Shown one piece after another: positions 26,880 through 62,348 of a stretch of 64,000 bases of DNA; position 1 is the first letter of the stretch, and the number at the start of each line of letters is the position of its first letter. The notes beneath the pieces are model-generated. The model saw nothing but the letters and a program-made list of their open reading frames with translations. It did no database searches and was not told the DNA's origin. Source of the DNA: Sedimentisphaerales bacterium (GTDB lineage Bacteria > Planctomycetota > Phycisphaerae > Sedimentisphaerales > SM23-30); assembly GCA_028281535.1 (NCBI GenBank), contig JANQJS010000003.1:62001-126000 (forward strand). Reading direction: 5' to 3'. Made by a program: the position numbers and the translations under genes.

Positions 26880-26971
26880 TTTCCATTACCTCCTTTAAGG
26901 CTTTTCTCCTGCTTTGAAGTTTTCCATTTACTCTCTTTAAATGGTCCTAAAAATATATAACGATATAATTA

Positions 26972-30249: not shown

Positions 30250-31737
30250 TTAACTGGATAATTGCTTTTCTAAGCAATGAAGCCAATTTGCATAGGCGTT
30301 TTGGAGCGACTCGAGTTGATTTGGGTCTGGTTCGATAGATTTTGTTTTATTAAATCCTATAAATGCCTGATCAAAATCCTTATAAACACCGCAACCCACT
30401 CCTGCACCGCGTGCGGCTCCTTGAGAGCCATCGGTGTTATAAAGTTCTACAGTACAATTGGTTACTGTTGCAAATGTTTGGGCAAAGATGGGGCTTTGGA
30501 ACATATTCGCATCGCCTGCTCGAACGGTGTTTATGCTTAAGCCCATGTCATGCATAATGTTAAGGCCATAGTTGAGTGAGAAAACAATGCCTTCTTGTGC
30601 GGCACGCAAGCAGTGAGCTAGTGTGTGTCGGTTGAAATCTAAGTTTTGGAAACATGCGCCGATATTATTGTTTGCCAAACTGCGTTCTGCACCATTACCA
30701 AATGGCAGAATGGTTAATCCTTCAGAGCCGGCAGGGATCTGGTTTGCCAGTTCGTTCATTTCGTTGTAATCTTTGCCACCCGTTAAGTTGTGTTTGAGCC
30801 AGCTGTTGAGAATACCTGTGCCGTTGATGCAAAGTAGAACACCGATACGATTTTTCTCTTCTGTGTGATTGACGTGTAAAAAGCCATTCACGCGCGATTG
30901 CGGATCAAAGCAGCTTTCTTTGGCAATGCCATAGATAACTCCAGATGTTCCCGCGGTTGTTGCTGCCTGGCCGGGTTCTAGGACATTGAGTGAGAAAGCA
31001 TTGTTGGGTTGGTCGCCACTACGATAGCAAACGGGTGTCCCGGCGGCGAGTCCGAGTTCGCTTGCAGCATCGCTAGTTAGGTTGCCCTGGTCACCAAACA
31101 CTTCGACGCGATCAGCTAGAACAGTATCAGGAATGCCATAGTAGTCCAGGACGTTGATGGCCACTTGATTTTCTTTAAAATTCCAAAGGATTCCTTCTGA
31201 TAGGCCGGTGTGAGTGGTATTGATCTGGCCGGTGAGCTTCATAGCAATGTAATCGCCGGGAAGCATAATTTTATGGATTTTTTTGAACAGGTCCGGTTCG
31301 TTTTCTTTGACCCAATGCAGCTTGGAGGCGGTAAAGTTACCTGGACTATTGAGAAAATTTTCCAGGCAGTATTCTTGGCCAAGATCGTTAAATGCTTTAT
31401 TACCAATTTCAACAGCTCGGCTATCGCACCAGATGATACTCGGGCGAAGGACTTGCTGATTTTTGTCGACGCAAACTAATCCATGCATTTGATAGGTAAT
31501 GCCAATGCCTTTGATGTCGGCGGGATTGATGGAACTTTCACTAAGAAGTTCTTGTGAGGCTGCTTTGACATTCGTCCACCAATCTTCAGGATTTTGTTCT
31601 GCCCATCCAGGTTGAGGGCTGAGAATTGCCATCTCTTTTTTAGGGCAAGTCGCACTGGCAATCAGCGCACCATTGTCTGCTTGCAACAAGGTTGCTTTCA
31701 CTGAAGACGTTCCAATGTCAAAACCTAATAAATACAT
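30250..31737 (-). CDS. xylB: Xylulokinase-type FGGY carbohydrate kinase
   Basis: 495 residues. N-terminal actin-like motif GFDIGTSSVKATLL, substrate region WCDSRAVEIG, the FGGY C-terminal motifs AATTAGTSGVIYG and DGSQGAARGAGVGCGVY. Closest by eye to xylulokinase, which phosphorylates D-xylulose; other ketose or alditol substrates are possible in this family. It is not next to a xylose isomerase. It lies near an aldo/keto reductase, a GntR regulator and a TRAP operon, so it may serve the same sugar pathway, but it has its own 390-base upstream region. Confidence 0.88.
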   Translation of the reverse strand: MYLLGFDIGTSSVKATLLQADNGALIASATCPKKEMAILSPQPGWAEQNPEDWWTNVKAASQELLSESSINPADIKGIGITYQMHGLVCVDKNQQVLRPSIIWCDSRAVEIGNKAFNDLGQEYCLENFLNSPGNFTASKLHWVKENEPDLFKKIHKIMLPGDYIAMKLTGQINTTHTGLSEGILWNFKENQVAINVLDYYGIPDTVLADRVEVFGDQGNLTSDAASELGLAAGTPVCYRSGDQPNNAFSLNVLEPGQAATTAGTSGVIYGIAKESCFDPQSRVNGFLHVNHTEEKNRIGVLLCINGTGILNSWLKHNLTGGKDYNEMNELANQIPAGSEGLTILPFGNGAERSLANNNIGACFQNLDFNRHTLAHCLRAAQEGIVFSLNYGLNIMHDMGLSINTVRAGDANMFQSPIFAQTFATVTNCTVELYNTDGSQGAARGAGVGCGVYKDFDQAFIGFNKTKSIEPDPNQLESLQNAYANWLHCLEKQLSS

Positions 31738-32128
31738 GAGATCTAAATATGTAGGCGAAATTTATCCTTTGGTCAATATGAAATTCTCCAGATAAGAAAT
31801 AAGTTATAATATTTTTATTGATAATATCTAAAGTCATTTAGGCGAGATGATCTATCAATTATTAGGCCGTTGAATAAATCTAAAGGTCAAAAAGATATTT
31901 GTTGTTAGCGTAAACAGTATTTTAGGATTTGAAATACTGTGTTGGTGAGATAATTTTTTCGAGCAATTATACGGCGATTTTAATTACAATTTAGATAAAC
32001 CAAAATTTATCATATTGTCGCACAAGCTTATCAAAACGACATCGTTTATCGTTGCGATGAGCTTGTGCATTAATTAAGGGAGCGCGTTATTGAAAAACTC
32101 GACACTGCTTAGGGACGAGTTGTTTCGA
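31738..32128. other. Intergenic region of 391 bp
   Basis: Holds the xylB promoter region and a hairpin: GCACAAGCTTATC (32020-32032) with GATGAGCTTGTGC (32056-32068), 13 base pairs with one G-U. The hairpin is 60 bases past the aldo/keto reductase stop but lacks a T-run on the minus strand, so its terminator role is uncertain. No ORF of note. Confidence 0.5.
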
Positions 32129-33166
32129 TTAATCCTCTTCTTCTAATTCTTCTTCGTCTTCTTCCTCTGGGCGTCTGAGGTGTTCGGGTAAGGCGTTATT
32201 GTCGGGTAGTTCATCGATTTCGTAACTTTTATAACCTTCATGCGTGCCATTTTTAGCAAAGTCGGCAGTTTGCTTCATGAGCTTTTCAATGTCTTCTTTG
32301 GTCATTGGTTTAAAGTTTCTGGCGATTTCCAGGTTTTTGTGGAGAATCTCCATAGAGTCAATCCCTGAGCAGAGTGTGGAAATTGGCATGGTCATTGAGA
32401 ATCGCATGGCGTCTTCGGGTTTGGCAATGTTGTTAGCAACGATAGGGCTTGGCGTTCCACATAGTGACTTCATTCCGATGACGCCCAGGTTTTTTTCAAC
32501 CGCGATAGGCAAAACTTCTTTGGTAAAACTGTAGTAGTGATAATCCAGAACGTTGATGGGCATTTGGATGGTGTCCCAGTCAAATCCGCGTTTGATCATT
32601 TCCAAGTGTACATAAGGTCGGTAATGGCCGGTAAAGCCGATATGGCGAATTTTACCTTGTTGTTTTGCTTTCAATGCAAAATCGAGAACACCCGAGTCGT
32701 AAATATCAATGATTTCACCAAGCTCGTCAATTTCATGGAATTGCCAGACATCGATGACATCTGTCTGGAGGCGTTTTAGGCTGTCTTCCAGATGTTTTTC
32801 AGCCATTTTAGGATCGCGTCCGTGATGTTTTGTCATCAAGACAATTTTTTTGCGGTAACCATCACGCAGAGCTTTGCCCATGCGTTCTTCGGCTCTGCCT
32901 TCATGATAGCACCAGGCGTTGTCAAAGAAGTTAATACCTTCATCGATTGCGGTGCGCATTAATTTAATGGCCTGGTTTTCAGTGAGGTGTTCTTCCAGGG
33001 CGATATTGCTTCCTCCAATAGCGAGTAAGGAAACTTGTTCGCCTGTTTTGCCCAGCACGCGATAGGGGATGCCGTTTCTTGCCGGGGCGGCAATGCTGAG
33101 TTTGCTCATTGAGAGTGCGGCGACTGCAGCGGTGTGAATAAATTCTCTGCGGGATAGATCCATCAT
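32129..33166 (-). CDS. TAT-exported aldo/keto reductase
   Basis: 345 residues. The N-terminus has a twin-arginine signal (LSRREFIHTAAVAAL), so the folded enzyme should be exported through Tat. The AKR barrel shows the catalytic set: Asp-x4-Tyr in FFDNAWCYHEGRAEERMG, Lys in IVLMTKHHG and His in VWQFHE. It binds NAD(P)H in related enzymes; a periplasmic cofactor source is an open question for the many planctomycete Tat-AKRs. The tail is a run of Glu and Asp. It follows the GntR regulator gene by 157 bases on the same strand. Confidence 0.9.
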   Translation of the reverse strand: MMDLSRREFIHTAAVAALSMSKLSIAAPARNGIPYRVLGKTGEQVSLLAIGGSNIALEEHLTENQAIKLMRTAIDEGINFFDNAWCYHEGRAEERMGKALRDGYRKKIVLMTKHHGRDPKMAEKHLEDSLKRLQTDVIDVWQFHEIDELGEIIDIYDSGVLDFALKAKQQGKIRHIGFTGHYRPYVHLEMIKRGFDWDTIQMPINVLDYHYYSFTKEVLPIAVEKNLGVIGMKSLCGTPSPIVANNIAKPEDAMRFSMTMPISTLCSGIDSMEILHKNLEIARNFKPMTKEDIEKLMKQTADFAKNGTHEGYKSYEIDELPDNNALPEHLRRPEEEDEEELEEED

Positions 33167-33323: not shown

Positions 33324-34058
33324 TCAATTCGATGGTGTTACATCGTTTAATTTATAAAATTTTATGGCGTGTTCTTCCGCTTGAGTGAGGTGTTTGCGCA
33401 TCGCATTGTATGCATCTTCAGGGTTTTTATCTAAAATAGATTTTGCAATATCTTGATGAAATTTGAGTGCCGCTTCTGGGGCTTCACTGAATGGGTAGGT
33501 GCTGGCAATAAATTTGTTTAGCAGATGTAAAATCGGATCCATAATAATGGGTATGAGTGGATTGTCAGTTGCTTTAGAAATACAACGATGGAATTCGATA
33601 TCGAGAGGGATATTTTTTTGAGGTTGTTTAATTTGTTTTTTCATTCTTTGGCATAATTTCATGAGATGCTCGGCAGTGTCGTCGCTTCGGTGTATTGCGG
33701 CCATTCTAGCGATTTGGGGTTCCATGAATAATCTCGTTCGGATGAGGTGCAAGAATGAGTATTCGCCACATTTCATATCCAGAAACATGTAAAATGGATC
33801 CACAATATTGGCAACATCTGGCTCTGCGATATAAACCCCGCTACCTTTGCGAATTTCTACGAGGCCGCGGCCAGCAAGCATGCGCAATGCTTCACGGATT
33901 GCGGTTCGGCTCACGCCAAATTTTTCAGCCAGTTCGATTTCGCCGGGCAGTTTATCTCCTGGGAGGAAGGATTTATTTTCAATGGCCTCTCGAATTTGCG
34001 ATTCGATTTTCTGGCTCAGTGATTTCTCTGGTTGTATTCGGGCGAACGACTCGATCAT
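33324..34058 (-). CDS. GntR-family transcriptional regulator, FadR/FCD subfamily
   Basis: 244 residues. Winged helix at about 15-80 with the GntR signature LPGEIELAEKFGVSRTAIREALRMLAGRGLVEIRKGSGVYI. The C-terminal all-helical FCD domain keeps metal/ligand histidines (EFHRCISKATDNP, MRKHLTQAEEH). FCD regulators usually bind organic or sugar acids (UxuR, ExuR, LldR, GntR) and leave DNA on binding. The gene faces away from the SDR-TRAP operon across a shared promoter-operator region, so it very likely controls that operon and itself. Confidence 0.93.
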   Translation of the reverse strand: MIESFARIQPEKSLSQKIESQIREAIENKSFLPGDKLPGEIELAEKFGVSRTAIREALRMLAGRGLVEIRKGSGVYIAEPDVANIVDPFYMFLDMKCGEYSFLHLIRTRLFMEPQIARMAAIHRSDDTAEHLMKLCQRMKKQIKQPQKNIPLDIEFHRCISKATDNPLIPIIMDPILHLLNKFIASTYPFSEAPEAALKFHQDIAKSILDKNPEDAYNAMRKHLTQAEEHAIKFYKLNDVTPSN

Positions 34059-34084: not shown

Positions 34085-34113
34085 TTGACAAAACTCGATT
34101 AACTGTGTATATT
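34085..34113 (+). promoter_or_regulatory. Near-consensus sigma-70 promoter for the SDR-TRAP operon
   Basis: TTGACA at 34085-34090, exactly 17 bases, TATATT at 34108-34113. Transcription would begin near 34120, inside the palindromic operator, and run to the SDR gene at 34253. Confidence 0.8.
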
Positions 34114-34139
34114 GTATGACAACATACAGGTTATGTCAA
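34111..34139 (-). promoter_or_regulatory. Near-consensus sigma-70 promoter for the GntR regulator gene
   Basis: On the minus strand TTGACA (34139-34134), exactly 17 bases, TACAAT (34116-34111). It faces the plus-strand promoter and shares its -10 bases. Transcription would begin near 34104 and reach the regulator ATG at 34058. Confidence 0.78.
34113..34128. promoter_or_regulatory. Palindromic operator, probable GntR/FCD binding site
   Basis: TGTATG-ACAA-CATACA, perfect 6-base arms. It overlaps the plus promoter's -10 end and start point and lies in the spacer of the minus promoter, so one bound dimer would block both. Confidence 0.75.
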
Positions 34140-34252
34140 TTATTTTCTTAAAAAAGCGGTTTTTTTAAGGATATGATGTATAAAAATTGGATGGACTTGT
34201 GCTGATTGGTGCAGGGTAAGCAAGCGTCAAGCTCATTCACTAAGGAGACTTC

Positions 34253-35017
34253 ATGGAAATTTCTCTTAAAGGGCGGGTTGCGATAGTAACAGGTAGTTCA
34301 CAAGGGATAGGCCGGGCTATTGCAGAAGCTTTGGCGGCATCTGGTGCATCTGTAGTAATTAATAGTCATCAAAACGGCGAACGACTTGATCGTGTAGCAA
34401 AAGAAATGACAGAACAAGGGTTCCAAGTTAAGTCGGTCGTTGCAGATGTTTCTCAGAGGGTGGGATGCCAAAGGCTTCTGGATGCGGCAATGGAATTTTC
34501 AGATTCCATAGATATTCTTGTCAATAATGCGGGAGGGTTGGTGAAGAGAGTCCCAGTTGCGGAATTTGATGAAGCGCATTTTGAGAAAGTGATCGATAGT
34601 AATTTACGTTCAGCATTTTTAATGTCTCACGTGGTGATCTCTCAAATGAAAAAACAGGGATCAGGAAAAATCATTCATCTATCGTCACAGGCAGCGCATG
34701 ACGGAGGCGGCCCGGGTTCTGCGGCCTATTCCGCGAGTAAGGGTGGTATTTGGACATTTACAAAATCATTAGCCAAAGAATTAGGACCGGAAGGAATACA
34801 TGTGAATTGTATTGCGCCAGGTTTTATTGCTAACACGGTTTTTCATGATACCTTTACACCTAAAGAAACACATGAAAACGTTATTGGTATGATTCCACTA
34901 CGTCGTCATGGGCAGTCCGAAGATGTTGCGGGTGTGGCCTTGTTTCTGGCGTCAAATCTTTCTGATTATATTACCGGGCAAACCCTTGAGGTTAATGGTG
35001 GATTGTATATGCTCTAA
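34253..35017 (+). CDS. SDR-family oxidoreductase (KduD/FabG-like)
   Basis: 254 residues, classical short-chain dehydrogenase. Cofactor motif TGSSQGIGRAIAEAL, NNAG motif (VNNAGG), catalytic Ser of HLSSQA and YSASK (Tyr-x3-Lys). In KduD and related enzymes such SDRs reduce or oxidise sugar acids such as 2-keto-3-deoxy sugars or 4-deoxy-hexulose uronate; FabG-like reductases are the alternative. First gene of the operon, with AAGGAG before the ATG. Placement ahead of a TRAP transporter and behind an FCD regulator favours a sugar-acid substrate. Confidence 0.9.
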   Translation: MEISLKGRVAIVTGSSQGIGRAIAEALAASGASVVINSHQNGERLDRVAKEMTEQGFQVKSVVADVSQRVGCQRLLDAAMEFSDSIDILVNNAGGLVKRVPVAEFDEAHFEKVIDSNLRSAFLMSHVVISQMKKQGSGKIIHLSSQAAHDGGGPGSAAYSASKGGIWTFTKSLAKELGPEGIHVNCIAPGFIANTVFHDTFTPKETHENVIGMIPLRRHGQSEDVAGVALFLASNLSDYITGQTLEVNGGLYML

Positions 35018-35049
35018 GGCATTTGTTGTCATGGCAATCTGAAATTACG

Positions 35050-36090
35050 ATGAAAACGTTTGTTATTGTCATTTTGGTATTGGGCTTTTCTCTGCTTGCT
35101 TTGCTGTTTGCTGGGCCAGAGGATTCGTCTGTCTGTGTGCTTAAGCTGGCTCATGTGCTTGATGCATCTCATCCTGTTAGTCAGGGGATGGTTCGTTTAG
35201 CCGAAGAACTTGAAACTGTATCCAATGGGAAAATGCGATTGGATATCTATCCTTCAGGTCAATTGGGTGCCAGCGAACGAGAATATATTGAATCGTTACA
35301 AATCGGTTCTTTGGATATGGCCAAAGTCAGTTCAGCGGTGCTGGAAAATTTTGTACCTCAGTTTGCTGTGTTAAGTTTGCCTTATATTTTTACGTCAGAT
35401 CAACATCGTTGGAATGTATTGTTTGGTCCTGAGGGGCAGCGTTTGTTAACACTGGGGGAACCGGTATGGTTACGTGGCCTTTGTTTCTATGAATCAGGGA
35501 GCCGCAATTTCTATTTGCGAGACAAAGCGGTACATACACCAGATGACTTAAAGGGTTTGAAGATTCGTGTCATGAAAAGTTATTGGGCGATTCAGACCAT
35601 TAATGCATTGGGTGGTTCAGCGACGCCCATTTCCTTTGGTGAATTGTATACCGCGTTACAACAGGGGGTTGTTGATGGTGCGGAAAATAATATTTCGACA
35701 CTGTATCGCTCTCGTCATTATGAGGCATCCAAATATTTTGTTTTAGATGGTCATTCTTCTCCATCAGATGTTCTTATGATCAGTACGCACCGCTGGAATC
35801 GATTGAGTCAGCAGCAGCAATCCTGGTTAATGCATGCAGTGGGTGTGTCATTGAGCTATCAACGAAATTTATGGGATCAGGCTGAGCAAAAAGCATTGGA
35901 AGATATGCGTCAAAAAGGTTTAACAGTGATAGAGCCTGATAAATCATTATTTAGAGAAAAGGTTCAATCTGTTTATGATATTGTTGAAAAAGAGCATCTA
36001 GAACTTTACCAGCTGATGGTCGATATTCAAGCGATACCTGATGATAAGGATTATTTGAATCGTGTGTCGCAAAGTCGTTTGGAGAATTGA
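35050..36090 (+). CDS. dctP: TRAP transporter substrate-binding protein
   Basis: About 346 residues from ATG 35050, which begins a signal peptide (MKTFVIVILVLGFSLLALL); a TTG at 35023 is possible but badly spaced from AAGG. DctP-family landmarks: PSGQLGASEREYIESLQ, the conserved Arg region LKGLKIRVM and GVVDGAENN. DctP proteins bind carboxylates, often sugar acids, through that Arg. It delivers ligand to the DctQM permease encoded next. Confidence 0.92.
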   Translation: MKTFVIVILVLGFSLLALLFAGPEDSSVCVLKLAHVLDASHPVSQGMVRLAEELETVSNGKMRLDIYPSGQLGASEREYIESLQIGSLDMAKVSSAVLENFVPQFAVLSLPYIFTSDQHRWNVLFGPEGQRLLTLGEPVWLRGLCFYESGSRNFYLRDKAVHTPDDLKGLKIRVMKSYWAIQTINALGGSATPISFGELYTALQQGVVDGAENNISTLYRSRHYEASKYFVLDGHSSPSDVLMISTHRWNRLSQQQQSWLMHAVGVSLSYQRNLWDQAEQKALEDMRQKGLTVIEPDKSLFREKVQSVYDIVEKEHLELYQLMVDIQAIPDDKDYLNRVSQSRLEN

Positions 36091-36093
36091 ACC

Positions 36094-36618
36094 ATGTTTA
36101 AAGTTGTCTATTGGGTAGATAGGATTTTGCTATGGTTGTTATCGTTTTTGACAATCGTGATGGTTCTTGATGTTTCCTGGCAAGTATTGTCTCGTTTCAT
36201 TCTCAAAACTCCCAGTTCTTTTACACAAGAATTGGCTAGTTATTTATTGATCTGGATCAGTTTGCTGGGCAGTGCCTATGCGTTGCGACAAAAAGCACAC
36301 TTGGGTATTGATCTGTTTACTCATCGCCTGTCTTGTCAAACCAGAATGGTATGGGAATGTTTTATTTTCTCTATAGTTATTCTATTTTCAGTTTTGGTTT
36401 TGATCTGGGGTGGAGGGCGATTAGTTTTTATTACATTATATCTTAATCAAACCTCACCGGCATTGCAGATTAAAATGGGATATGTTTATACCGTTCTGCC
36501 GTTAACTGGTGTGTTGATGATATTTTATTCTGTCTATTTCATACAGTTATCCATTCAGCAGCGAGGTAACGATTCATCTGAGCAGCAGCAAGAAGATACC
36601 ATGGGGGCAACGTTATGA
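36094..36618 (+). CDS. dctQ: TRAP transporter small permease
   Basis: 174 residues, four membrane helices, DctQ signature near QVLSRFILKTPSSFTQELASYLLIW and LRQKAHLGIDLF. Starts 3 bases after dctP and overlaps dctM by 4 bases (ATGA), so translation is coupled. The tail is Gln/Glu-rich. Confidence 0.92.
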   Translation: MFKVVYWVDRILLWLLSFLTIVMVLDVSWQVLSRFILKTPSSFTQELASYLLIWISLLGSAYALRQKAHLGIDLFTHRLSCQTRMVWECFIFSIVILFSVLVLIWGGGRLVFITLYLNQTSPALQIKMGYVYTVLPLTGVLMIFYSVYFIQLSIQQRGNDSSEQQQEDTMGATL

Positions 36619-37910
36619 CCGTTTCCATGATGCTATTAATTATAATTTTTATTTTTCTGCTACTGATGAACGTTCCCATTTCAATATGCATTGCCATGGC
36701 AACCGTTTTAACCATGATGTCACATATGCCTGCGGAACCTGCCGTGACGCAAGTGGCGCAAAAAATGGCCACAGGGCTTGATAGTTTTGCTCTGTTGGCG
36801 ATACCTTTCTTTATTCTATCCGGCCAATTTATGGGGCGAGGTGGAATCGCTCGGCGTTTAATCCAGCTTGCCCGGGCATGTGTCGGGATGCTTCCTGGTG
36901 GATTGGCTTATGTGAATATTGTCTCAAGTATGTTATTTGGTTCTATTTCCGGCTCGGCGGTTGCCGCGACTTCTGCGATTGGCAGTTTCATGATTCCTGA
37001 AATGGAAAAAAGTGGTTATGACAAAAATTATTGTGCATCCGTCAATGCCACAGCATCTACGACAGGGCTTTTGATACCACCTAGTAATATTCTGATTGTA
37101 TATTCGCTGGTGAGCGGTAGCGTTTCAGTGGCGGCGTTATTTATTGCCGGGTATTTGCCAGGAATTTTGACTGGTGTATTACTCATGGTCGCCGCGGGTA
37201 TTGTTGCAAAGGCCAAAGGTTATCACGGAGGCCAACGGGTACCGTTTTCAGAATTTGTGAAACGTTCCGGTGATGCATTTTTGAGTTTGTTGCTGGTGGT
37301 CATTGTCATTGGTGGTATTATTGCCGGATTTTTTACGGCCACAGAAGCAGCAGCCATTGCTGTTTTGTATTCGTTCATTCTATCGGTTCTGATTTACCGA
37401 GAAGTAAAGCTGTCCGATTTGTCAGAGATTTTAAAACAGACCATCATTACCAATGCCGTTGTCATGCTACTCATTGGGTGCAGTATGGCGTTATCATGGA
37501 TGCTGGCTTATGAAAATATTCCTCAGTTGATTAGTAAAGCTCTATTGGAGTTGACGGATAATAAATGGCTCATTCTATTGCTGATCAATGTTGTGTTACT
37601 ATTGGTGGGGACATTTATGGATGCAACACCAGCAGTACTGATATTTACCCCGATTTTCTTACCGGTGATGGTTCAATTGGGTATTGATCCACTACACTTT
37701 GGTATTTTTATGATTTTAAATTTATGTATTGGTATCTGTACGCCGCCGGTTGGAGCGGTTTTATTTGTTGGCTGTCGCGTAGCAGATACAAAAATCACCC
37801 ATATGTTCAAATGGCTGCTTCCCTTTTTTGTGGCCATGATTATTTCACTGCTATTAGTGACTTACATACCTGAAATTACTTTAGTACTTCCCAGAGTATT
37901 TGGATTTTAA
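36615..37910 (+). CDS. dctM: TRAP transporter large permease
   Basis: 431 residues, about 12 membrane segments, DctM/SiaM type. Motifs include PFFILSGQFMGRGGIARRL, SGSAVAATSAIGSFMIPEM, LIPPSNILIVYS and GICTPPVGAVLF. It is the sodium-driven channel-forming subunit. The downstream three-paralogue block follows 36 bases later on the same strand. Confidence 0.95.
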   Translation: MTVSMMLLIIIFIFLLLMNVPISICIAMATVLTMMSHMPAEPAVTQVAQKMATGLDSFALLAIPFFILSGQFMGRGGIARRLIQLARACVGMLPGGLAYVNIVSSMLFGSISGSAVAATSAIGSFMIPEMEKSGYDKNYCASVNATASTTGLLIPPSNILIVYSLVSGSVSVAALFIAGYLPGILTGVLLMVAAGIVAKAKGYHGGQRVPFSEFVKRSGDAFLSLLLVVIVIGGIIAGFFTATEAAAIAVLYSFILSVLIYREVKLSDLSEILKQTIITNAVVMLLIGCSMALSWMLAYENIPQLISKALLELTDNKWLILLLINVVLLLVGTFMDATPAVLIFTPIFLPVMVQLGIDPLHFGIFMILNLCIGICTPPVGAVLFVGCRVADTKITHMFKWLLPFFVAMIISLLLVTYIPEITLVLPRVFGF

Positions 37911-37946
37911 AAAAAACTAACGTGTATATTGGATAGGAGAGCATTC

Positions 37947-40595
37947 ATGCGAATTGCTATGATCATTGTATGTTTTACCACGATGGTGTTTACTGTGGTG
38001 CCCCTGTCGAGTCAATCTTTTGGGAATGATTTGGACCCATTTTATGCTTACTATACCAAACGACATTTTGATGATCCATATGAAAAAATCGTGGGACAAT
38101 ATACGGATATTGTTGTTAATGTATTTGAAAATAATCAGGTTGTCTTTTCGAGACAAACCAGTTATTTACCTGTCTGGCAAACCCGACAGGGGACATGGGC
38201 TTTTGAAGAATTAATTCCTCGGCAAGGGGATGGTGATTCAGGTAGGCCAGATAGGATTAATCGTTATAGCCATGTTAGACTTATTAAAAATGAACCTGAT
38301 CAAGTCATTGTTCACTGGCGTTATGTTGAAAATTTTAAACAGGCAGAACAGGCTGGATTTATTGATGAGTATTTTACATTTACCCCAGATAAGAAAGTAC
38401 GCCGTAGGGTACGCTTTGCCAATGATAAACTGGATGAATGGCAGGATTTAGAAAAAACAATCAGGCAGGAGTGTCAACTCAATGAGAGTGGCATTGAAAT
38501 CTTATTAACAAAACGGCCTGAATTTAGGAATCTAAAGATAAAACCTGTGACGGATCGGGCCATTAAAAACGTATCCAATCATAAGCCGGTTCTATCGTTT
38601 CATTTTGATGAGGGTATCAAGACTCGATCTTATGAAGCTAAAGATATGACGCTTGAATCAGTTCATCATCTAAAAGCTAAAATTGATGGGAATATTTCAC
38701 TTTATAAAGAAGGTGTTTCTGGATCTGCTCTGATGTTTGATGGATATAGCTCCGGGGTCAAAATATCTAACAAGTCGTTTCCTAAGGATCTTTATGAGGA
38801 ATTTGAAGAAGGCTTTACGATATCCGCTTGGATATCGATTGGAGCCTATTCCTGGAATTGGTCTCCTATTATTCATCAAAGCCAGTGGAGTGATAAGGGG
38901 TATTTTCTGGGTATCAATGATTCGGGGCAACTTGGATTCATGGCAAAAGTAGGTGATCATTGGGAAACCGTTCGCAGTAAAATGTCACTGGAACGATTTC
39001 GTTGGTATCATGTTGCTGCTAGCTATAACCTTGAAGAGGGGCTGATGTGTATCTTTCTTGATGGTAAGTTAATCAAGTGCCAACGAGTCAAAGCTGAAAT
39101 TGATCCTGAAGTAGATGAAGTTCACGTCGATTTCGCAAAACAACAGGATTTTTTAATAGGTATGGGAAACAATCCTGTTCGTGCTACGAATGCCCATCGT
39201 CGTTGGACATACCCGGCGACCTTTGGATTTGATGGGTTGATCGATGAGGTGGCACTCTTTAATCGGCCTTTAAGTTGGCAGGACATCAAACAAATATATG
39301 ATCAATTGAAACCCAGTCGTGACGAAATTCATCATCCAGATATGGATCGACGGCATTTTCCTGCTAACCCGGAAGGTAAGACGGCTCCTGCTTTTTCAAC
39401 TCAATATTGGAAACTCGATTTCTATGAAAACTGGGATAATCTGTGGCGTGTCAGTGAACATCCCGATGTATTGGTTGAATTTGAACAGGTGCCTGGTCGG
39501 TTTGCATTTTGGCGCGGCCTAAGTTATGGCATTGGCATCATTACGGATAATGGTAAATGGAGTGGTGATCAAAGTTGTGAAACATGGGGAGATGATATCG
39601 CTCGAGGCTGTTGTGAGCATATGTCTGATAAGCAGTGTCGACATAGCCATGTGCGAATCATTGAAAACACGCCGGCTCGCAGTGTGATTCATTGGCGATA
39701 TGGCGAAGTGGATGTGAGGTATATTTTTCCGATGCATAATGGAGATGGTCCGTTTGCTGATGAGTATTGGACGTTTTATCCTGATGGTTTTGGTATTCGT
39801 CATGTGGCTCGAGGTGAAGGTGGTTGGCAGGAAACCATGTTCTATAATGAACCTGGCACACGTCCTGAAGATAATGTCGATCTTAAAGCCTTTACCTCAA
39901 TTGATAGTAAAGGAAAGCGAGTTGATTTTGATTGGACCGATTATTATCCATACCCTGGTCAAGGCATTCCGGCAACCGTTACCATGGTTAATATGAAATC
40001 AACCTATAAACCTGTTTATATTTACCCACCTGATTCACAGGTTATAACGTTCGTACCTCCGCTGGTTCGACGCGATTATTCCGCCTTTCACTGGGCGAAT
40101 CATTATCCGGTTTCCCAAATGTCTTCCGATGGACGCAGTGCGGAGGCCGCAGATCGTTCGGCTCACTCCTCTTTGGTGTGGGGGGAACCCTCAAAAGAGT
40201 ATCTGATGGTTGGATTATCTAATCAATCCCCAGAAAAACTTTTGCCGCGAGCTCGAAGTTGGAATAATCCGCCTAGAGTGATCCATTTAAACAATTGTAA
40301 AAGTCTTGGCTATGAACCTCAGCAACGTTGCTATCAAATTGAGAATAATAGTGAACCATTCTCTTTTACACTCGATGCCAATCATAAATCGCCATTGGTA
40401 AATCCGGCATTTGAAGTTAAAAACTGGCCTGGAAGAAATGTCAAAGCAACCGTCATGATAAACGGAAAGACGTTAAAGGATGGCCAGGATTTCCAACAGG
40501 GAGTTGTTTTTAATACAGAGGGTAAAACAGAATTAATCATTTGGTTAAAGTTAGAAACGTATAAGTCGATCAATGTAGAAATTGGAAGACATTAA
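37947..40595 (+). CDS. Exported LamG protein with two copies of an unrecognised SHV-HWRY domain
   Basis: About 882 residues from ATG 37947 (GGATAGGAGAG RBS). Signal peptide at 1-27. Residues ~30-160 hold a partial copy of the shared domain (RYSHVRLI, VHWRY, DEYFTFTPD). Residues ~215-445 are a LamG/concanavalin-like jelly roll (SALMFDGYSSGV, FTISAWI, FDGLIDEVALFNRPLS). Residues ~485-760 are the full shared domain: WRVSEHPDVLVEFE, FAFWRGLSYG, TDNGKW, MSDKQCRHSHVRII, IHWRY, DEYWTFYPDGFGIR. A C-terminal beta unit (SPLVNPAFEVKNW) is common to all three paralogues. LamG suggests glycan binding. The shared domain is not one I can name; a carbohydrate-active role is inferred from context. Confidence 0.85.
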   Translation: MRIAMIIVCFTTMVFTVVPLSSQSFGNDLDPFYAYYTKRHFDDPYEKIVGQYTDIVVNVFENNQVVFSRQTSYLPVWQTRQGTWAFEELIPRQGDGDSGRPDRINRYSHVRLIKNEPDQVIVHWRYVENFKQAEQAGFIDEYFTFTPDKKVRRRVRFANDKLDEWQDLEKTIRQECQLNESGIEILLTKRPEFRNLKIKPVTDRAIKNVSNHKPVLSFHFDEGIKTRSYEAKDMTLESVHHLKAKIDGNISLYKEGVSGSALMFDGYSSGVKISNKSFPKDLYEEFEEGFTISAWISIGAYSWNWSPIIHQSQWSDKGYFLGINDSGQLGFMAKVGDHWETVRSKMSLERFRWYHVAASYNLEEGLMCIFLDGKLIKCQRVKAEIDPEVDEVHVDFAKQQDFLIGMGNNPVRATNAHRRWTYPATFGFDGLIDEVALFNRPLSWQDIKQIYDQLKPSRDEIHHPDMDRRHFPANPEGKTAPAFSTQYWKLDFYENWDNLWRVSEHPDVLVEFEQVPGRFAFWRGLSYGIGIITDNGKWSGDQSCETWGDDIARGCCEHMSDKQCRHSHVRIIENTPARSVIHWRYGEVDVRYIFPMHNGDGPFADEYWTFYPDGFGIRHVARGEGGWQETMFYNEPGTRPEDNVDLKAFTSIDSKGKRVDFDWTDYYPYPGQGIPATVTMVNMKSTYKPVYIYPPDSQVITFVPPLVRRDYSAFHWANHYPVSQMSSDGRSAEAADRSAHSSLVWGEPSKEYLMVGLSNQSPEKLLPRARSWNNPPRVIHLNNCKSLGYEPQQRCYQIENNSEPFSFTLDANHKSPLVNPAFEVKNWPGRNVKATVMINGKTLKDGQDFQQGVVFNTEGKTELIIWLKLETYKSINVEIGRH

Positions 40596-40605
40596 GGAGT
40601 TCATC

Positions 40606-42765
40606 ATGAAGTTGGTTAATGTGATTTTAATGTTATTATTTTTTATAACCTTGCCAGTAAATGTTCAGACGGCAAAGGGCGATATGATTGCTGAATGGAC
40701 ATTTGATGATATCGAAGGTCGACGTGTCAAAGACCATGGTTCAGGATCATGGGATTTCATTGATGGCCATTTTGACATCGTTGACGGCGTTGTAGGTAAA
40801 GCGATCAAATGTGATGGTTTTACCACATCGATTGCACGCGGTGAGCCGGAGCGAGATGAAGATGACGAGGATGAAAATGAAGATGAGAATGAGGGAGAAC
40901 GGTATGAGCAAGAAATAAGTGATCCTGTGATTGCAGAAGCCTTTACCATTGAAGCGTGGGTCGCACCCCAGGCCTATCCATGGAACTGGTGCGCGGTCTA
41001 TAATCAGGAATATAAAAAAGCGCGAGGTGTCTTTTTTGGAATTGATGGTGAAGGTCGCGTTGGCCTGCATACCGCTGTAACAAGACAATGGCGAGAATGT
41101 GTTAGTCAGGACAAAATTCCTTTTATGGCCTGGTCATACATCGCCGCGACGTTTCATCCAGAATCTGGTATGCGCGTTTATATCAATGGACAGTTATCTG
41201 GGGAGTTGCATGTGAAAGGAGATCTTTTATACGATAGAGAATTTCCCATGCAAATAGCTCGTAATCATGAGCCTATGTCGCCTTCCTCTTTGAATCGAGC
41301 GGGGTTTGTGAATGTACCAGTGAAATATTCGTTTGATGGCATTATTGACGAGTTAAAGATCACCCGAGGAGTTCTTGATTCATCGCAGCTTCTTAAAAAC
41401 TACCAACGGCTTAAGCCCAGCAAAGCTCCTGAACTTGTTTGGCGAAAATTACCAAAAATTCCCACAGATAATGCTGAATTTGGAGCATTCTATACCAAAC
41501 TTAACTATGATGCGGATTGGGATCGGCTATGGCGAGATGATCGCTTTCCAGATATTGTGATTACCTTTGATGAACAAAAATATTCTATGGTGTTCTGGAA
41601 GGGGACCAATTATAACATGAACCTTATTACGGAAAATGGCAAATGGATTGGGGATCAAAGTGCCGAAACCTTTGGTGAATTTGGTTGTATGGAGCATATG
41701 TCAGATAAACAAAACCGTTATAGCCATGTTCGTTTGATTGAAAACAGCGATGCTCGAATTGTTGTACATTGGCGTTATGCGTTGACAGACATTAATTATA
41801 CCATTGCTAATACGGACTCTAAAACCAACTGGGGGGATTGGGCGGATGAGTATTATTATGTTTATCCTGATGGTATTGCTGTACGTCATTACTTGATACA
41901 TGGTATTGAGAATGGAGGATACAGCGTGACGGAACCTGCTTTGTTTTGTAGTCCTGGCGAAAAACCTGAAGACAATATTGACATGGTTGCGGTGACTGTT
42001 GCTAATCTTGCTGGCAAAACAAGCAGTCATTCATTTGAAACCTGGCCTGCTGAGGATAACAATGATGATGAAGAGGTTGGTCGTTTTAAAAATTCGGTTG
42101 ACAATGAAGTGCTATCTGTGATCAATGTCAAATCGAAAGCAAAGCCATTTTTTATCTATGAACATGAAAATAGCATCGGCCCTTATGGCGGAGGCAAACG
42201 AGAAATTGATTATCGGTTATCAAAATTTCACTGGCGAAATCATTGGCCTGTAACACAAATCCCCAGTGATGGTCGTTTCATTTTATCTAACGACAGGGTA
42301 ACCAGTTCTGCTATAACCTCACCGAGATCTGGTATAAAACGAGAGACTGAAAATGGTCCTTTAGAAGGTCGGTTTATCCTGGGAATTAGTGAAGAACCCG
42401 CTGAGGCGCTTGTTCCATTTGCGAGATTCTGGATAAACACACCTAAGCTTAAAATCAATAGCCAAAATTTTACATATAATGGATTCAGTCGAAATGATCG
42501 AGCCTATCATTTTACAAAAAATGATTCGGCTGCAACTGAAATTGCCATGACTGTTTCTGCTAGTGAATCTTCTCCTCTTGTTAATCCTGTTTTTGTTGTC
42601 AAAAATTGGAATAGCGATTCGTTGAAACTAAAAATTAATGGTGCTCAACAGAAAGAATCCGATGGGGTCAAATATTCAATTCGCAAAACACTCGAATCAC
42701 AAGATCTTATTGTGTGGCTGGAATTGAATGAAAATAAAACGACAAAGCTAACGTTTCGGCAATAA
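40606..42765 (+). CDS. Exported LamG protein with one SHV-HWRY domain, paralogue 2
   Basis: About 719 residues from ATG 40606 with AAGGAG upstream; its start is 10 bases past the previous stop. Signal peptide about 1-24. LamG at ~20-262 (IAEWTFDDIEG, FTIEAWVAPQAYPWNWC, FDGIIDELKITRG), interrupted at ~82-102 by a run of Asp/Glu/Asn. Shared domain at ~290-640: WDRLWRDDRFPDIVITFD, MVFWKGTNY, TENGKW, MSDKQNRYSHVRLI, VHWRY, DEYYYVYPDGIAVR. C-terminal beta unit SPLVNPVFVVKNW. Same H-14-H and Y-11-R spacing as its neighbours. Function unknown, likely acts on an extracellular glycan. Confidence 0.85.
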   Translation: MKLVNVILMLLFFITLPVNVQTAKGDMIAEWTFDDIEGRRVKDHGSGSWDFIDGHFDIVDGVVGKAIKCDGFTTSIARGEPERDEDDEDENEDENEGERYEQEISDPVIAEAFTIEAWVAPQAYPWNWCAVYNQEYKKARGVFFGIDGEGRVGLHTAVTRQWRECVSQDKIPFMAWSYIAATFHPESGMRVYINGQLSGELHVKGDLLYDREFPMQIARNHEPMSPSSLNRAGFVNVPVKYSFDGIIDELKITRGVLDSSQLLKNYQRLKPSKAPELVWRKLPKIPTDNAEFGAFYTKLNYDADWDRLWRDDRFPDIVITFDEQKYSMVFWKGTNYNMNLITENGKWIGDQSAETFGEFGCMEHMSDKQNRYSHVRLIENSDARIVVHWRYALTDINYTIANTDSKTNWGDWADEYYYVYPDGIAVRHYLIHGIENGGYSVTEPALFCSPGEKPEDNIDMVAVTVANLAGKTSSHSFETWPAEDNNDDEEVGRFKNSVDNEVLSVINVKSKAKPFFIYEHENSIGPYGGGKREIDYRLSKFHWRNHWPVTQIPSDGRFILSNDRVTSSAITSPRSGIKRETENGPLEGRFILGISEEPAEALVPFARFWINTPKLKINSQNFTYNGFSRNDRAYHFTKNDSAATEIAMTVSASESSPLVNPVFVVKNWNSDSLKLKINGAQQKESDGVKYSIRKTLESQDLIVWLELNENKTTKLTFRQ

Positions 42766-42779
42766 AGAAAATAATAGAT

Positions 42780-42808
42780 GTAGGGTGGGCATATTTTGCT
42801 CACCTTAC
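42780..42808. repeat. Intergenic hairpin between paralogues 2 and 3
   Basis: GTAGGGTGGGCA and TGCTCACCTTAC form an imperfect hairpin. It starts with ATAGATGTAGG (42774-42784), the same 11 bases that open the long hairpin after ettA at 57035, so the two may belong to one dispersed repeat family. Confidence 0.45.
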
Positions 42809-42848
42809 TAAAGTGTAGAAATCGTGTAGAAATATCAGGAGTTCATTT

Positions 42849-45218
42849 ATGAAGTTGTTTCTTTTTAAACCCATATTCATGGGTGTGTGCATGTTCTGTC
42901 AACTTGTTTCAATTCCGTTACTAGCGGATATTGTGGTTGATCACCGGAAAAGTCAATCTTATTCGCAGTGGTTTGATTCACATTATGAATTGTGTCAAGA
43001 GATGCAAAAAATCGCTCAACATGATCAAGAAAATTTTCAACAGCTTGAATTGAGTTATTGGAAAAGATCTGAACATTATGAAGTTGAAGAGGCCAAAGGA
43101 TTTGACATGGTCTTTGCTCCTGAGCAATCTTTGGAAAAGGCTGAGTGGGAAGTATTTGAGTCATTTTCTGACAATCAATTTTATCCATTTGAAGACATTC
43201 CAGATTCTATCGTGTTTTATTTACATCGGTCGATTAAAGCAAAAGAAGCAGTGGAGTTGCCATTAACAGTTTCTTGTAATATGCCCTTTAAAATCTGGTT
43301 AAATAAACGCTTAGTTATTACGAACAAAGAACAGAACGCGCCAGCTCAATCGAAACGCATTGAGCTGAAAAAAGGGGAAAATCAGTTACTGATTAAAATT
43401 GATAATCACTATGACACAAGTATTCGATTTTCATTACAACCCCCCATCGATTCGATGGATCTGTTGGCTCATTTTCTTTCCAAAAGCTATAAAGAGATTA
43501 AAGATAATCAGCTGAAAGAAATGATTGCATGGGAAATTGAAGATAATATTTGGTCGATTAAAAATCTAAGTGAATTACATGAAGGGTTGTGTCAGAATTA
43601 TATTGATGCCATGGCCTCAGATTTTGAATTAAAGAAGACTGCAGAGAATTTTATTAAAAAACAGAATAGTTTTTACGGTTTAAAGATCCTTCGGCTCTTA
43701 TATCAAATTGATCATTTTTGTAAGAAAATGGACTATGTTCAGGTCAATTATCCTGATGATCATCAAGGGTGGCAAGCGTTCAAGACATCAATGAACAATC
43801 TTATCAAACAATCGTCAAAAGCAATAGATGATTTTCTGGCCGGTAACAGTACTGAAAATTTACTCCAGGAACAGTTGGAAAAAACCATTGTAACAGGACT
43901 TCAAATTCCAGTACGCTTGCCCTCAACACCGCTGACTCCTGGCCGATTTGGTGGGTATTATACTGATTTAAAATATTACCCGGAATGGGACAACTGGTGG
44001 CGTATTGGCGATCATCCCGACTTGGTCATTGTTTTTCCGGAGGATACTCATAAGTTTGTTTTTTGGCGAGGCACCAATTACATTCCTCACTGGGTCACAG
44101 AAAAAGGATTTTGGTATAACAATGAATTTAATGAAACCTGGTTTTCACATGGATCAGCTGAACCGATGTCAGATAAAGATTGCCGTTATAGTCATGTGCG
44201 TCTGTTGGCCAGTCATCCGGGACGTGTAGTGGTGCATTGGCGTTATGCGCTAAACGATGTGAAATATGATATCGCCTGGCCAGATAAATTTACCGGGTGG
44301 GGCGATTGGAGCGATGAATATTACTATATATATCCGGATGCAGTTGGTGTTCGCAAGGTCATACTTCACACCTCGTATGCCAGTGAAAGTTCGATAAAAT
44401 CAACCGATGAAAGTGGACATGAATGGCAGGAAGGGATCGTTGTGTATCATCCATTTACCACGCCAGAGGATTATTTACACATTGATGCTGTACATGTTGC
44501 GAATATGCAAGGGAAATCTGGCAAGTGGTCCTGGAAGACACATGGCGAGCCAACCACGCCAACTCCCGACGGTAGTAACATTGTTATGATGAATATGAAA
44601 AGCAACTACAAGCCCTTTGTTATTTCACAAGAAGGTGTCGAATTGTCTCCGTATGAAGGCGCACAAGGAGGGTCGCATTTTCGTTGGCGTGATCACTGGC
44701 CAACCACGCGCGAGCCGACGCCTGGTAGAAATGCCAATGGCTTACAGGCGGCCCATGGTTCCTTCTTCCATGTTCTGAATATTCCCTATTATGAAAAAGA
44801 GAAACATAAACTAACCAAAATCATGCTGCACGGTTTGACCCAAACGGCTGTCGAAGGATTGGTGCCTGTCGCTCAATCCTGGCTTAAAGCGCCTGAATTG
44901 AAACTAGTGGATGATAAGCTGGCAACCTATGAAGGATACGATATGACGCAACGGGCCTATGTTTTAACTTTGTCAAAAAGTGGCACATCTGCAACCATTG
45001 ACTTGGATATTATGGCTGATAAGGAATCTCCGATGGTCAATCCTGTTTTGATTTTCAATAATTTAGAAACGAACGAACGAAAACTTTCTATGAATGGTCA
45101 GCTTTTAAAGCTGGGATCAGATTATAGCTGTGGTACGGAACTAGAGTTCAAACATACAAAACAAATTTACTGGATCAACAAAACCTTAACGAGCAAAACT
45201 AGATTATCGTTTCAGTAA
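42849..45218 (+). CDS. Exported protein with one SHV-HWRY domain and helical N-terminus, paralogue 3
   Basis: 789 residues; signal peptide to about residue 26; CAGGAG RBS. It has no LamG. Residues 90-200 include a small beta module typical of accessory sheets in glycan enzymes (FKIWLNKRLVIT, ELKKGENQLLIKIDN). Residues 205-360 are helical. The shared domain is at ~385-700: WWRIGDHPDLVIVFPE, FVFWRGTNYIPHWVTE, MSDKDCRYSHVRLL, VHWRYALNDVKYDI, DEYYYIYPDAVGVR. The end repeats the common beta unit (SPMVNPVLIFNN). Last gene of the operon before a bidirectional terminator. Not a family I recognise. Confidence 0.85.
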   Translation: MKLFLFKPIFMGVCMFCQLVSIPLLADIVVDHRKSQSYSQWFDSHYELCQEMQKIAQHDQENFQQLELSYWKRSEHYEVEEAKGFDMVFAPEQSLEKAEWEVFESFSDNQFYPFEDIPDSIVFYLHRSIKAKEAVELPLTVSCNMPFKIWLNKRLVITNKEQNAPAQSKRIELKKGENQLLIKIDNHYDTSIRFSLQPPIDSMDLLAHFLSKSYKEIKDNQLKEMIAWEIEDNIWSIKNLSELHEGLCQNYIDAMASDFELKKTAENFIKKQNSFYGLKILRLLYQIDHFCKKMDYVQVNYPDDHQGWQAFKTSMNNLIKQSSKAIDDFLAGNSTENLLQEQLEKTIVTGLQIPVRLPSTPLTPGRFGGYYTDLKYYPEWDNWWRIGDHPDLVIVFPEDTHKFVFWRGTNYIPHWVTEKGFWYNNEFNETWFSHGSAEPMSDKDCRYSHVRLLASHPGRVVVHWRYALNDVKYDIAWPDKFTGWGDWSDEYYYIYPDAVGVRKVILHTSYASESSIKSTDESGHEWQEGIVVYHPFTTPEDYLHIDAVHVANMQGKSGKWSWKTHGEPTTPTPDGSNIVMMNMKSNYKPFVISQEGVELSPYEGAQGGSHFRWRDHWPTTREPTPGRNANGLQAAHGSFFHVLNIPYYEKEKHKLTKIMLHGLTQTAVEGLVPVAQSWLKAPELKLVDDKLATYEGYDMTQRAYVLTLSKSGTSATIDLDIMADKESPMVNPVLIFNNLETNERKLSMNGQLLKLGSDYSCGTELEFKHTKQIYWINKTLTSKTRLSFQ

Positions 45219-45253
45219 GATTTGAATGATAGCCAATTTTATATTGTTGAATC

Positions 45254-45288
45254 AAAAAGGCAGGTCAAATAATTTGACCTGCCTTTTT
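45254..45288. terminator. Bidirectional rho-independent terminator
   Basis: AAAAAGGCAGGTCAAAT (45254-45270) is mirrored by ATTTGACCTGCCTTTTT (45272-45288), giving a long perfect stem with A- and T-runs on both sides. It separates the convergent operon and dihaem-protein gene. Confidence 0.95.
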
Positions 45289-45311
45289 GTAATTATTGTA
45301 AGTGCTCAGAA

Positions 45312-48300
45312 TTAATTTAGAATTTGATAGGCATCTAGGTGAGTTTCACCTGAAACATGTGTAATGAGTACGGTGTGATCATCACAACTCAATGATGATA
45401 TTTCAAATGCGATGACGCCATTTTCTGCTCCGGCTGGTACGGTAACAGATTGAGCGGTACCACCGTCGATTGAAATAGTAAATGTTTGTTGGTCATCAAA
45501 CTGCCAGACGTAAATTCTAAAACCAGCACCTGTGAATGAAAAGTTTGCAGTGGCACCAGGATTAACTCCCCATTGGGCATCATTATTAAAACCACCAACC
45601 GCTGAAACATTTCCACCGAAATTTATATAGCTGATACTAGGATCGGTATTGTTGACCATGGCCTGCCAGGTTGAACCACAGGTTGGTGGCCCAGTCGAAA
45701 CGACGAAATCGATAGTGCCAAAGCAGTCAACGATGCCGCCATCCGTAGGATTTTGTGAAATCACTGCTCCGGCAGGAACCGTATTATGATGTGTTTGTGT
45801 GATCGCTCCTACGGTAAATCCTGCTGTTGTTATCGCTGTTTGGGCATTGGCTTGAGTCATATTCACCACATTAGGAATTTGACACTGTGGGAATCCTGTA
45901 GAGACCACGAGGTCAACACTTGAACCACAGATAATTTGAGATAATGCTGGTGGCGTTTGCGAAATCACCTGTCCAGCAGGGATCGTAACGTGCGATGTTG
46001 ATGTCACTGAACCGACTGTAAAATTAGATGATGTGATGAGTGCTTCTGCAGTAGCTTGCGTTTGGTTGACAACATCAGGTACGGTGCAATTAATAACGAC
46101 TAACCAATCCTGTAAAAAGATGGTGTAATCAAGGAAGTTGACAGCACCATCACAATTCAGATCAGCCTGGTTGCAATTATTATTGTTTTGATCACAATTC
46201 TGATTTAGCCAGACGCTTAAAAGAATCATCAAATCAGCAGTATCTGTAATGTAATCATTATTAAAGTCCGTATCAGCTCCAGGAAGCGAAACAGATATGG
46301 ATTGTGACTCACCCGTTTCATTACCAAAAACATCACGAGCTTTGACGGTATAGCTATAAGATCCACATGATTGTAATCCTGAATCAATGTAAGTCGTAGA
46401 TACTTGCCATCCGCTATTATTACTGCCTGTTAGGCCTGTGGTTTCCGTAAAATAATATTCAATCGGACCATTACTATCTGAAGCCGTGGTAGCCGTCATA
46501 GATACTTGGCTATTTGATATGGCCATAGGATCTGTAGCAAAAGTCATCGGGTTGGGGCTAGGTGGATCAGATTCAGTAACAATGACAGGGCCTATGCTTA
46601 ATACATACTCTGCTAAATCGTCAATTTGCTGCGTTGTTAAATTCGAAGTTGTCCCATGCTGATCGGTTGGATTGTGTGTTGTTAGTACCTCTTGAATGGT
46701 TGCTGCACGGCCATCATTAAGATAGGGAGCTGTTCGCCAGAGACCCACTAATGATGGTGTGTCGAGCATTTCGTTGACGGTTAAACCCGTGCCGACATTA
46801 TGTTTGTTGAGGTCCGTGAAATAGGTTCCGCTATGGCAAGACGCACACCGATTGGCAAAGAGGGTTTGTCCATTTTGAGCATTTGGACTAAGCTGGCCAC
46901 TAACAAGATGTGGACTCGGTTTAGGTGTTAGGGATGTCAAATAAGTGACAACATCCGCGGCATCTTGTTCTGGGTAATCACTAATTCTGTAATCGCCCTT
47001 GAAATTTTCTCTGACAATAAAGTCTAAATCTGGTCGACCACCATTGGAATCCATCGGTGGCGTAAAGGCAGAATAGAGTGGGCTTTTTGTTGCTCTCAGT
47101 GAACCATAGCCATCAACCGATAGATCCCAATTAAAACCATCGGAGGAGTTATCGCTATGACAAGTTGTGCAACTTAGCCAATGCTGGAAACATGCAGTTG
47201 CATCATTGAAATATTTTTCGCCACGTCGCTCGGCTGTGGGAGTGTTTTGAGGTCCCAGCAGAAGTGATTGTGGCGTAATGGGGGTGGTGGTTATGTCAAA
47301 ATAACTGATCGAGTCTGTAAAGTACTCGCCTACATAAACAATGTTACCAACAACCGCAATGGATCGAGGGCCATTACCATTAAGTTTTAGTCGTTGTCGT
47401 ATTCCTGATAGAAAGCCCATATCGTGAGGAATATCAGCGGTAGTATTTGCAAAACCACCTGCTGCGGCATATGCTGTTGGATCAGCTAATCGTTGGTGCA
47501 ATATTGTTAAATCAATGATACTGATTTCATGTAGCCCAGCATGTGTAACATATAATTGGGTTCCATCTGCTGAACATGCGATGGCCCAGGGGTTAGCAGC
47601 CCCTTCATAAATATCGTCCAATAGAAACGTATTCAGATAGGTGTTATCTGATAAACGGATTACAGAAACCGCGTTGGTAACAAGCCAGCCTCGGTCTAAT
47701 TGTGTAAATGGCATTTTGTACCTGGCAAGAACATGTGACACGTAGGCATATTGATTGTCAGGGGAAATACAAACGTCTTTTAAACTAGATGCTCCATCTG
47801 GTAATTGAAGTGTTTGGATGATGGTCTCTGTTGCCGTCGAAATTAATGTGACATTGGCTGCATGTGTTCCTGTATTTGCTGCACCTTGAGGTAAATGGTG
47901 CGCGACGACAAGTGTATTGCCGTTTGATGTCAAGCTTGTGGCGATTGGTTCGCGGTTGACTGAAATTGTATTTAATAGCTGAAGTGTTGTTGCATTAAAG
48001 ACACTAATAGTATTGTTGAAACGATTGGCAACGTAAACTTTATTGCTACTTGAATTAACAGAAGGAGCCACCGGGGTATGACCTGTTGTCGTTGATTGAA
48101 GGGGAATACCAGTGTTTAGATCAATCAACGTTAATTTTCCTGCATAATCTCCACTGGTGATGTAGAGTTTTTGATCGTCTTGCGAAACGGCAAGTCCATT
48201 GGGAGGTCCGGCTAAACTAAATGTTCGCGTAACAGTATTTGTTAATGTCGAAATTTCGTCAATTTGATTTGCTGTTGATTGAGCGACATAAATATGTAGC

Positions 48301-48425: not shown

Positions 48426-48464
48426 AATATTTTCACCTTTTAGTGTTATAGTCTTTATGGTCTA

Positions 48465-52611: not shown

Positions 52612-52644
52612 AATATATTCTTTCTGTCATTAACTCGATTAACA

Positions 52645-60105: not shown

Positions 60106-60108
60106 TAA

Positions 60109-61378: not shown

Positions 61379-61400
61379 AGTCCTTTTGTCAGATCAGAGA

Positions 61401-62318: not shown

Positions 62319-62348
62319 TATTCCTTTCTCAAATGTTAGATGTAAAAA

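Follow-up and report, generated by a model that had tools for sequence, protein, structure and literature searches.

The window examined here is a 64,000-nt (64-kb) stretch from the genome of a Sedimentisphaerales bacterium (contig JANQJS010000003.1 of assembly GCA_028281535.1, positions 62,001 to 126,000). It carries an SDR (short-chain dehydrogenase/reductase) gene, the DctP, DctQ and DctM genes of a tripartite ATP-independent periplasmic (TRAP) transporter, and genes for three large exported proteins, paralogues 1, 2 and 3, which share the ~425-residue domain that is the main subject of this analysis. By the open reading frame list all seven genes are on the + strand with intergenic gaps of at most 83 bases, and they lie between a strong promoter and a closing terminator-like palindrome (Table 1). 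This layout agrees with the original prediction, which was made from the sequence alone, and the seven genes are confirmed at that level as one putative operon. The palindrome is symmetrical, thus the terminator may be active in both directions, as had been proposed.

Table 1. Features of the putative operon and its control region (window coordinates)
Feature	Position	Strand	Basis and remarks
GntR/FCD (FadR-subfamily) regulator, divergent	33324..34058	-	Pfam GntR 6e-22, FCD 2e-20
Operon promoter TTGACA-17-TATATT, sigma-70-like	34085..34113	+	Motif scoring, 11/12
Divergent promoter TTGACA-17-TACAAT, serving FCD regulator	34111..34139	-	Motif scoring, 11/12
Candidate FCD operator TTGT-ATG-ACAA	34112..34122		Sequence; overlaps -10 elements of both promoters
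SDR oxidoreductase	34253..35017	+	Pfam; no assignment beyond superfamily
DctP, TRAP solute-binding protein	35050..36090	+	Pfam 5.5e-74; hexuronate-type relatives; alternative start 35023
DctQ, TRAP small permease	36094..36618	+	Pfam 3.5e-28
DctM, TRAP large permease	36615..37910	+	Pfam 2.8e-124
Paralogue 1	37929..40595	+	Signal, half domain (38040-38408), LamG (38742-39290), full domain (39366-40592); ATG alternative 37947
Paralogue 2	40582..42765	+	Signal, LamG (40933-41385), full domain (41473-42762); ATG alternative 40606
Paralogue 3	42849..45218	+	Signal, ~330-aa region without family match, full domain (43941-45215); no LamG
17-pair palindrome flanked by A and T runs, terminator-like	45253..45289		Scored on + strand

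Pairwise BLASTP among the three paralogues gives E-values of 4e-100, 1e-54 and 6e-81, and on these alignments their homology is beyond doubt, with a mutual identity of only about one third. Every motif listed for them in the original prediction is present in the sequences. The shared domain, previously estimated at ~280 residues, is longer, and what was described as a common C-terminal beta unit is part of it. LamG (PF13385) is above the Pfam cut-off in paralogues 1 (70 bits) and 2 (65 bits) and not in paralogue 3, as predicted. In paralogue 1 a degenerate half copy of the domain (residues ~38-160) precedes LamG at the N-terminus.

The domain had been called unrecognised, and searches with the domain alone, both by profile and by predicted structure, bear this out. 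No meaningful Pfam match is found inside the domain in any of 108 family members, NCBIfam has no match for it, and no credible chain is found among the PDB sequences, either by phmmer with a single sequence or with the 108-member profile (E≤10). The AlphaFold2 model is all-beta and of high confidence (pLDDT 94, pTM 0.94). With Foldseek it shows a weak and partial likeness to the sheets of galactose-mutarotase-like proteins (E ~1e-4, TM ~0.3; beta-supersandwich), and a search of a viral structure library gave nothing useful; as modeled, the domain has a fold without a PDB counterpart. Literature searches did not find a description of the domain. It should be noted that novelty is judged here against Pfam, NCBIfam and the PDB, and that CAZy families having no Pfam model (e.g., GH139 and GH187) lie outside this comparison.

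A 697-residue model of LamG together with the domain keeps a pTM of 0.91, thus the two appear to form one rigid unit. In this model LamG is packed rigidly on the domain rather than attached as a loose module for binding. A fold search with LamG plus the domain finds domain 4 of AbnA and the binding domains of clostridial neurotoxins. These matches are read as reflecting only the LamG part, with its concanavalin-A-like lectin fold.

The near-invariant residues among the 108 members include E362, E371, D375, K376, R392, R398, Y428, D430 and H554 (in the numbering of paralogue 2), and these are retained in all three window copies and in most copies of the genome. In the N-terminal half copy that paralogue 1 carries, and in the corresponding half copies elsewhere, E362 and E371 are lost in nearly all cases and R392 usually. 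Thus the half copies are probably inactive.

The family is found at no fewer than 78 loci, in Planctomycetota, Hydrogenedentota, Verrucomicrobiota, Bacteroidota, Acidobacteriota, Alpha- and Betaproteobacteria, TA06, Aminicenantes and other candidate phyla, and spans at least eight bacterial phyla and one Lokiarchaeal metagenome-assembled genome (MAG). The genome under study has 26 matches at E≤1e-20, some of which are parts of one gene; only 6 of 30 sampled relatives from the same family and order have the family. The most common architecture is a LamG-sized region followed by the domain (57), followed by half copy, LamG-sized region and domain (32), and by the domain alone (19), with 12 other and 12 partial architectures. 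Two or more adjacent copies, five at most, are found at 21 of 90 loci. Two members of ~1400-1500 aa (L095:5006-9184 and L098:996-5534) are situated behind genes that by eye resemble those for an extracytoplasmic function (ECF) sigma factor and FecR.

Paralogues 1, 2 and 3 belong, by sequence comparison, to separate old clades. A recent duplication as the source of the trio was rejected, as each paralogue resembles proteins from other phyla or genomes much more closely than the two encoded next to it. At loci L044 and L048, too, members assigned to each of the three types are found side by side, and since the types have diverged and yet adjoin there as well, their roles may be complementary rather than redundant.

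The genes around family members point to the glycans of L-fucose and L-galactose. Enrichment was counted in 46 genomes within 10 kb of a member; the GH29 (glycoside hydrolase family 29) and member sets are the matches listed, so that all these counts hold among such matches and are approximate. GH29 genes are found 23 times against 1.9 expected (14 genomes) and GH95 genes 11 times against 1.15 expected (10 genomes), while the control GH2 is found 5 times against 1.6 expected. The neighbour clusters, counted by loci, are GH29 (19), zinc-dependent alcohol dehydrogenase (Zn-ADH; 17), SSF symporter (14), SusC/D (13/12), aldo-keto reductase (AKR; 13) and sulfatase (12), and more rarely iron-dependent alcohol dehydrogenase (10), GH95 (8), PfkB (8), amidohydrolase (7) and GH141 (5).

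The nearest orthologue of each window paralogue adjoins GH29, GH95 or AKR. That of paralogue 1 (L082, 68% identical) has two GH29 genes around it. Those of paralogue 2 are flavobacterial (L062, L055 and L057 of the Flavobacteriia, 67-70% identical), and the L062 cluster reads SusC-SusD-GH95-GH97-esterase-epimerase-member-AKR, the esterase name being carried over from L055. Those of paralogue 3 (L056 from Melioribacter, and L059; 55%) have GH29 or GH29 plus GH95 next door.

The oxidoreductases among the neighbours suggest oxidation of the same sugars. The AKR at L073 has L-galactose dehydrogenases as its closest PDB relatives (7lh6, 2e-71), the amidohydrolase there is closest to 4dlf and to the L-fucono-1,5-lactonase model, under the equivalog cut-off of the latter, and the neighbour Zn-ADH is closest to L-idonate 5-dehydrogenase. 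The L-galactose route of Luteolibacter LG18 (PMC12632266), in the lgu oxidative pathway for L-galactose and L-glucose, has parallels in the AKR and Zn-ADH, and PfkB kinases are likewise found beside family relatives. The genome under study has a Zn-ADH 62% identical to those next to relatives, and a PfkB at C8 beside two members. However, such enzymes are not in the window, with the exception of one distant, putatively exported AKR, and the available part of the lgu-cluster account (PMC12632266) does not mention a family member. In Agaribacillus (L034:11282-17093) a member is found with DUF6797, two ThuA and a 3-keto-disaccharide hydrolase, a setting that recalls the 3-keto glycan pathway.

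We consider the domain to be the core of a candidate carbohydrate-active family, new and so far without a name, that serves in the breakdown of L-fucose/L-galactose glycans, most likely as a glycoside hydrolase, and regard the chances of this as about even. More tentatively, it is possible that this is a candidate new GH family specific for alpha-L-galactosides or alpha-L-fucosides, with a fold absent from the PDB and catalytic residues of its own, spread over at least eight bacterial phyla and the Lokiarchaeal MAG, with an expansion to 26 copies in a single planctomycete. Glycans of algae and plants that are rich in fucose resist decay, and many of the enzymes acting on them are unknown. The family is coherent, its active-site-like residues are near-invariant, its model is confident and has no solved match, and its gene context is clear, which would make it an immediate test bench. 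It would also name many hypothetical proteins now labeled "LamG" in Planctomycetota, Verrucomicrobiota, Bacteroidota, Acidobacteriota and Rhizobiales.

Several observations weigh against this interpretation. Most members of the genome under study are isolated among unrelated genes, so that the linkage with fucosidases rests mainly on other genomes. The exceptions are C8, which has PfkB, sulfatase, GH32, MFS, Zn-ADH, SSF and two members, and three GH29 neighbours; in favour of the interpretation, three of the five GH29 genes of the genome adjoin members or are within 3 kb of them. The L-fucose/L-galactose link is thus by family and not by window neighbours, and no GH29, GH95 or sulfatase gene is found in the 64-kb window. 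The genome has no good relative of L-galactose dehydrogenase beyond the window AKR (32129-33166), its only relative of the L-galactose-dehydrogenase-like neighbour AKRs (30%, 2e-10); this AKR has a Tat-like N-terminus (SRREFIHTAAVAALSM) and could be an exported sugar oxidoreductase. The weak fold matches are to mutarotase-like beta sheets and not to glycoside hydrolases. Neighbourhood enrichment, moreover, cannot separate a glycosidase from an esterase, an epimerase or a binding protein.

The original prediction had the paralogues as extracellular lyases of an acidic polysaccharide, with unsaturated products entering through the TRAP transporter. A DctP closest to galacturonate and glucuronate binders and the FCD regulator in the locus are in keeping with this; Lys, Arg, Tyr and His, all conserved, might take part in a beta-elimination, and uronic acid does occur in fucose polymers such as fucoglucuronomannan. 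However, GH88/GH105, the usual partner of lyases, is found within 10 kb of none of the members (0 of 45) in the 46 genomes, an absence that is weak on its own since only 0.3 were expected, and 30 of the 46 genomes that hold the family are without any GH88/GH105. The enriched neighbours are fucosidases, no fold match to a lyase was found, and the SDR is far under the KduD cut-off. Lyases are therefore rather improbable here, and a candidate hydrolase is more likely. Of the proposed acidic-polysaccharide degradation locus, the carbohydrate context and the putative sugar-acid transporter stand, while the acidic polysaccharide itself is weakened by the GH29/GH95 enrichment and the GH88/GH105 result.

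An accessory enzyme for the same L-fucose/L-galactose glycans that is not a glycosidase, such as a sugar mutarotase, a de-esterase or a new sulfatase-like enzyme, is unlikely, although galactose mutarotases and LacZ domains with the mutarotase fold are among the weak top Foldseek matches, and proteobacterial members look cytoplasmic and are near monosaccharide-oxidising genes. The TM-scores are just ~0.3, the L062 member is already adjoined by a separate aldose 1-epimerase, and it would be unusual for a mutarotase to have 26 copies and to form tandems of as many as five. Least probable is a non-catalytic family of glycan-binding or surface proteins made of LamG and a beta domain. The LamG fold, the degenerate half copies and the many exported, isolated copies in this genome would suit such a role, but near-invariant Glu, Asp, Lys, Arg, Tyr and His are kept throughout several phyla, and members lacking a signal are found near importers and sugar-oxidising enzymes.

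The extracellular role first proposed may hold for the window paralogues, which are exported, and not for the whole family. In alpha- and betaproteobacterial and Lokiarchaeal members no signal peptide is visible by eye; thus the domain is not restricted to polymers outside the cell. The proteobacterial members are situated near sugar ATP-binding cassette (ABC) importers and genes for L-galactose/L-fucose oxidation. The Rhizobium member at L073 is flanked by the permease genes and the ATPase gene of such an importer, and the members without a signal probably act on small imported sugars.

Known enzyme families for related glycans were compared with the domain. The neighbourhoods of relatives, like fucosidase and fucoidan utilisation loci, hold GH29, GH95, GH141, sulfatases and SusCD; unlike these loci, the window operon has no known fucosidase, and the domain matches none of the three families. 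The GH29 and GH95 models (PF01120, PF22124) are not among the Pfam families listed for the 108 members. The GH141 catalytic domain is a parallel beta-helix (PMC10154630), and membership was rejected, there being no beta-helix entries among the fold matches listed. The PL40 (polysaccharide lyase family 40) and PL37 ulvan enzymes and the fucoidan lyase FdlA are alike in being secreted enzymes for sulfated algal polysaccharides, but they have toroid or beta-helix folds, whereas the modeled domain is all-beta sheet with neither. PL40 ulvan lyase, an (alpha/alpha)6 toroid with an antiparallel beta domain (PMC12915356), and the oligosaccharide dehydratase P29_PDnc/PL37, an incomplete (alpha/alpha)6 toroid, were rejected on fold, as was FdlA, whose catalytic domain is a right-handed beta-helix (PMC9410043); the domain profile has no PDB match at E≤10. 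These three lyase and dehydratase families thus differ from the domain in fold.

The TRAP genes form a complete DctPQM set, with the binding protein, small permease and large permease genes side by side by Pfam. The top two PDB matches of DctP are 4N8Y (2e-60) and 4X8R (7e-58), described as galacturonate- and glucuronate-bound (PMC11668362). With hexuronate binders as its nearest relatives of solved structure, what the original prediction said of sugar acids survives, and uptake of a sugar acid through TRAP is plausible from sequence. The window set has DctP, DctQ and DctM in common with hexuronate TRAP transporters and differs from them in that its operon also encodes an unnamed domain in three copies, a combination not seen at other loci. 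TRAP genes are found near members at none of 78 other loci, nor beside members in further loci, which reach only ~1.5 kb; the coupling is seen only in the Sedimentisphaerales genome under study. The SDR, earlier described as KduD-like, scores 196 against a KduD cut-off of 339 in NCBIfam. It passes the cut-off of the glucose-1-dehydrogenase subfamily (241.6 vs 215 bits), its PDB relatives are FabG-like, and it can be assigned to the superfamily only.

In the mechanism proposed, the exported, long-diverged trio would cut different linkages of one L-fucose/L-galactose glycan outside the cytoplasm. An acidic product, either a uronate or an aldonate, would bind DctP, enter via DctQM and be processed by the SDR. 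The FCD regulator may sense the sugar acid and repress from the candidate operator at 34112-34122.

The FCD regulator itself was correctly recognised from the sequence: a GntR helix-turn-helix, an FCD domain and a predicted operator between the divergent promoters are all present. The operator follows the FadR-subfamily consensus, TKGT, 3 nt, ACMA (PMC4494728). In the 64-kb window, TTGT-N3-ACAA-type sites number 4 vs 2.1 expected. The best NCBIfam relative of the regulator is NanR, with a score under the NanR cut-off. A second TTGT-N3-ACAA site at 32015-32025 lies upstream of an FGGY (xylulokinase-like) gene (30250-31737), and for this reason the FCD regulon may include the kinase.

Other features of the window lie to either side of the operon. 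Two proteins at 26124-27823 have PEP-CTERM-like sorting signals at their ends (IPEPATMVLLGLGSLGLTRMRKR and IPEPATILLLGTGSLALARFRRK). Just downstream of the operon, on the opposite strand, are two large proteins (45312-50792), both exported and both carrying CxxCH haem-binding motifs, one of which also has beta-propeller-like and PASTA-like repeats. Similar HD-GYP-like proteins form a tandem pair at 51307-53979, and an operon for metal uptake by an ABC system, together with a DtxR-like regulator, is found at 58588-62931, in which a permease is seemingly fused to a regulator-like domain.

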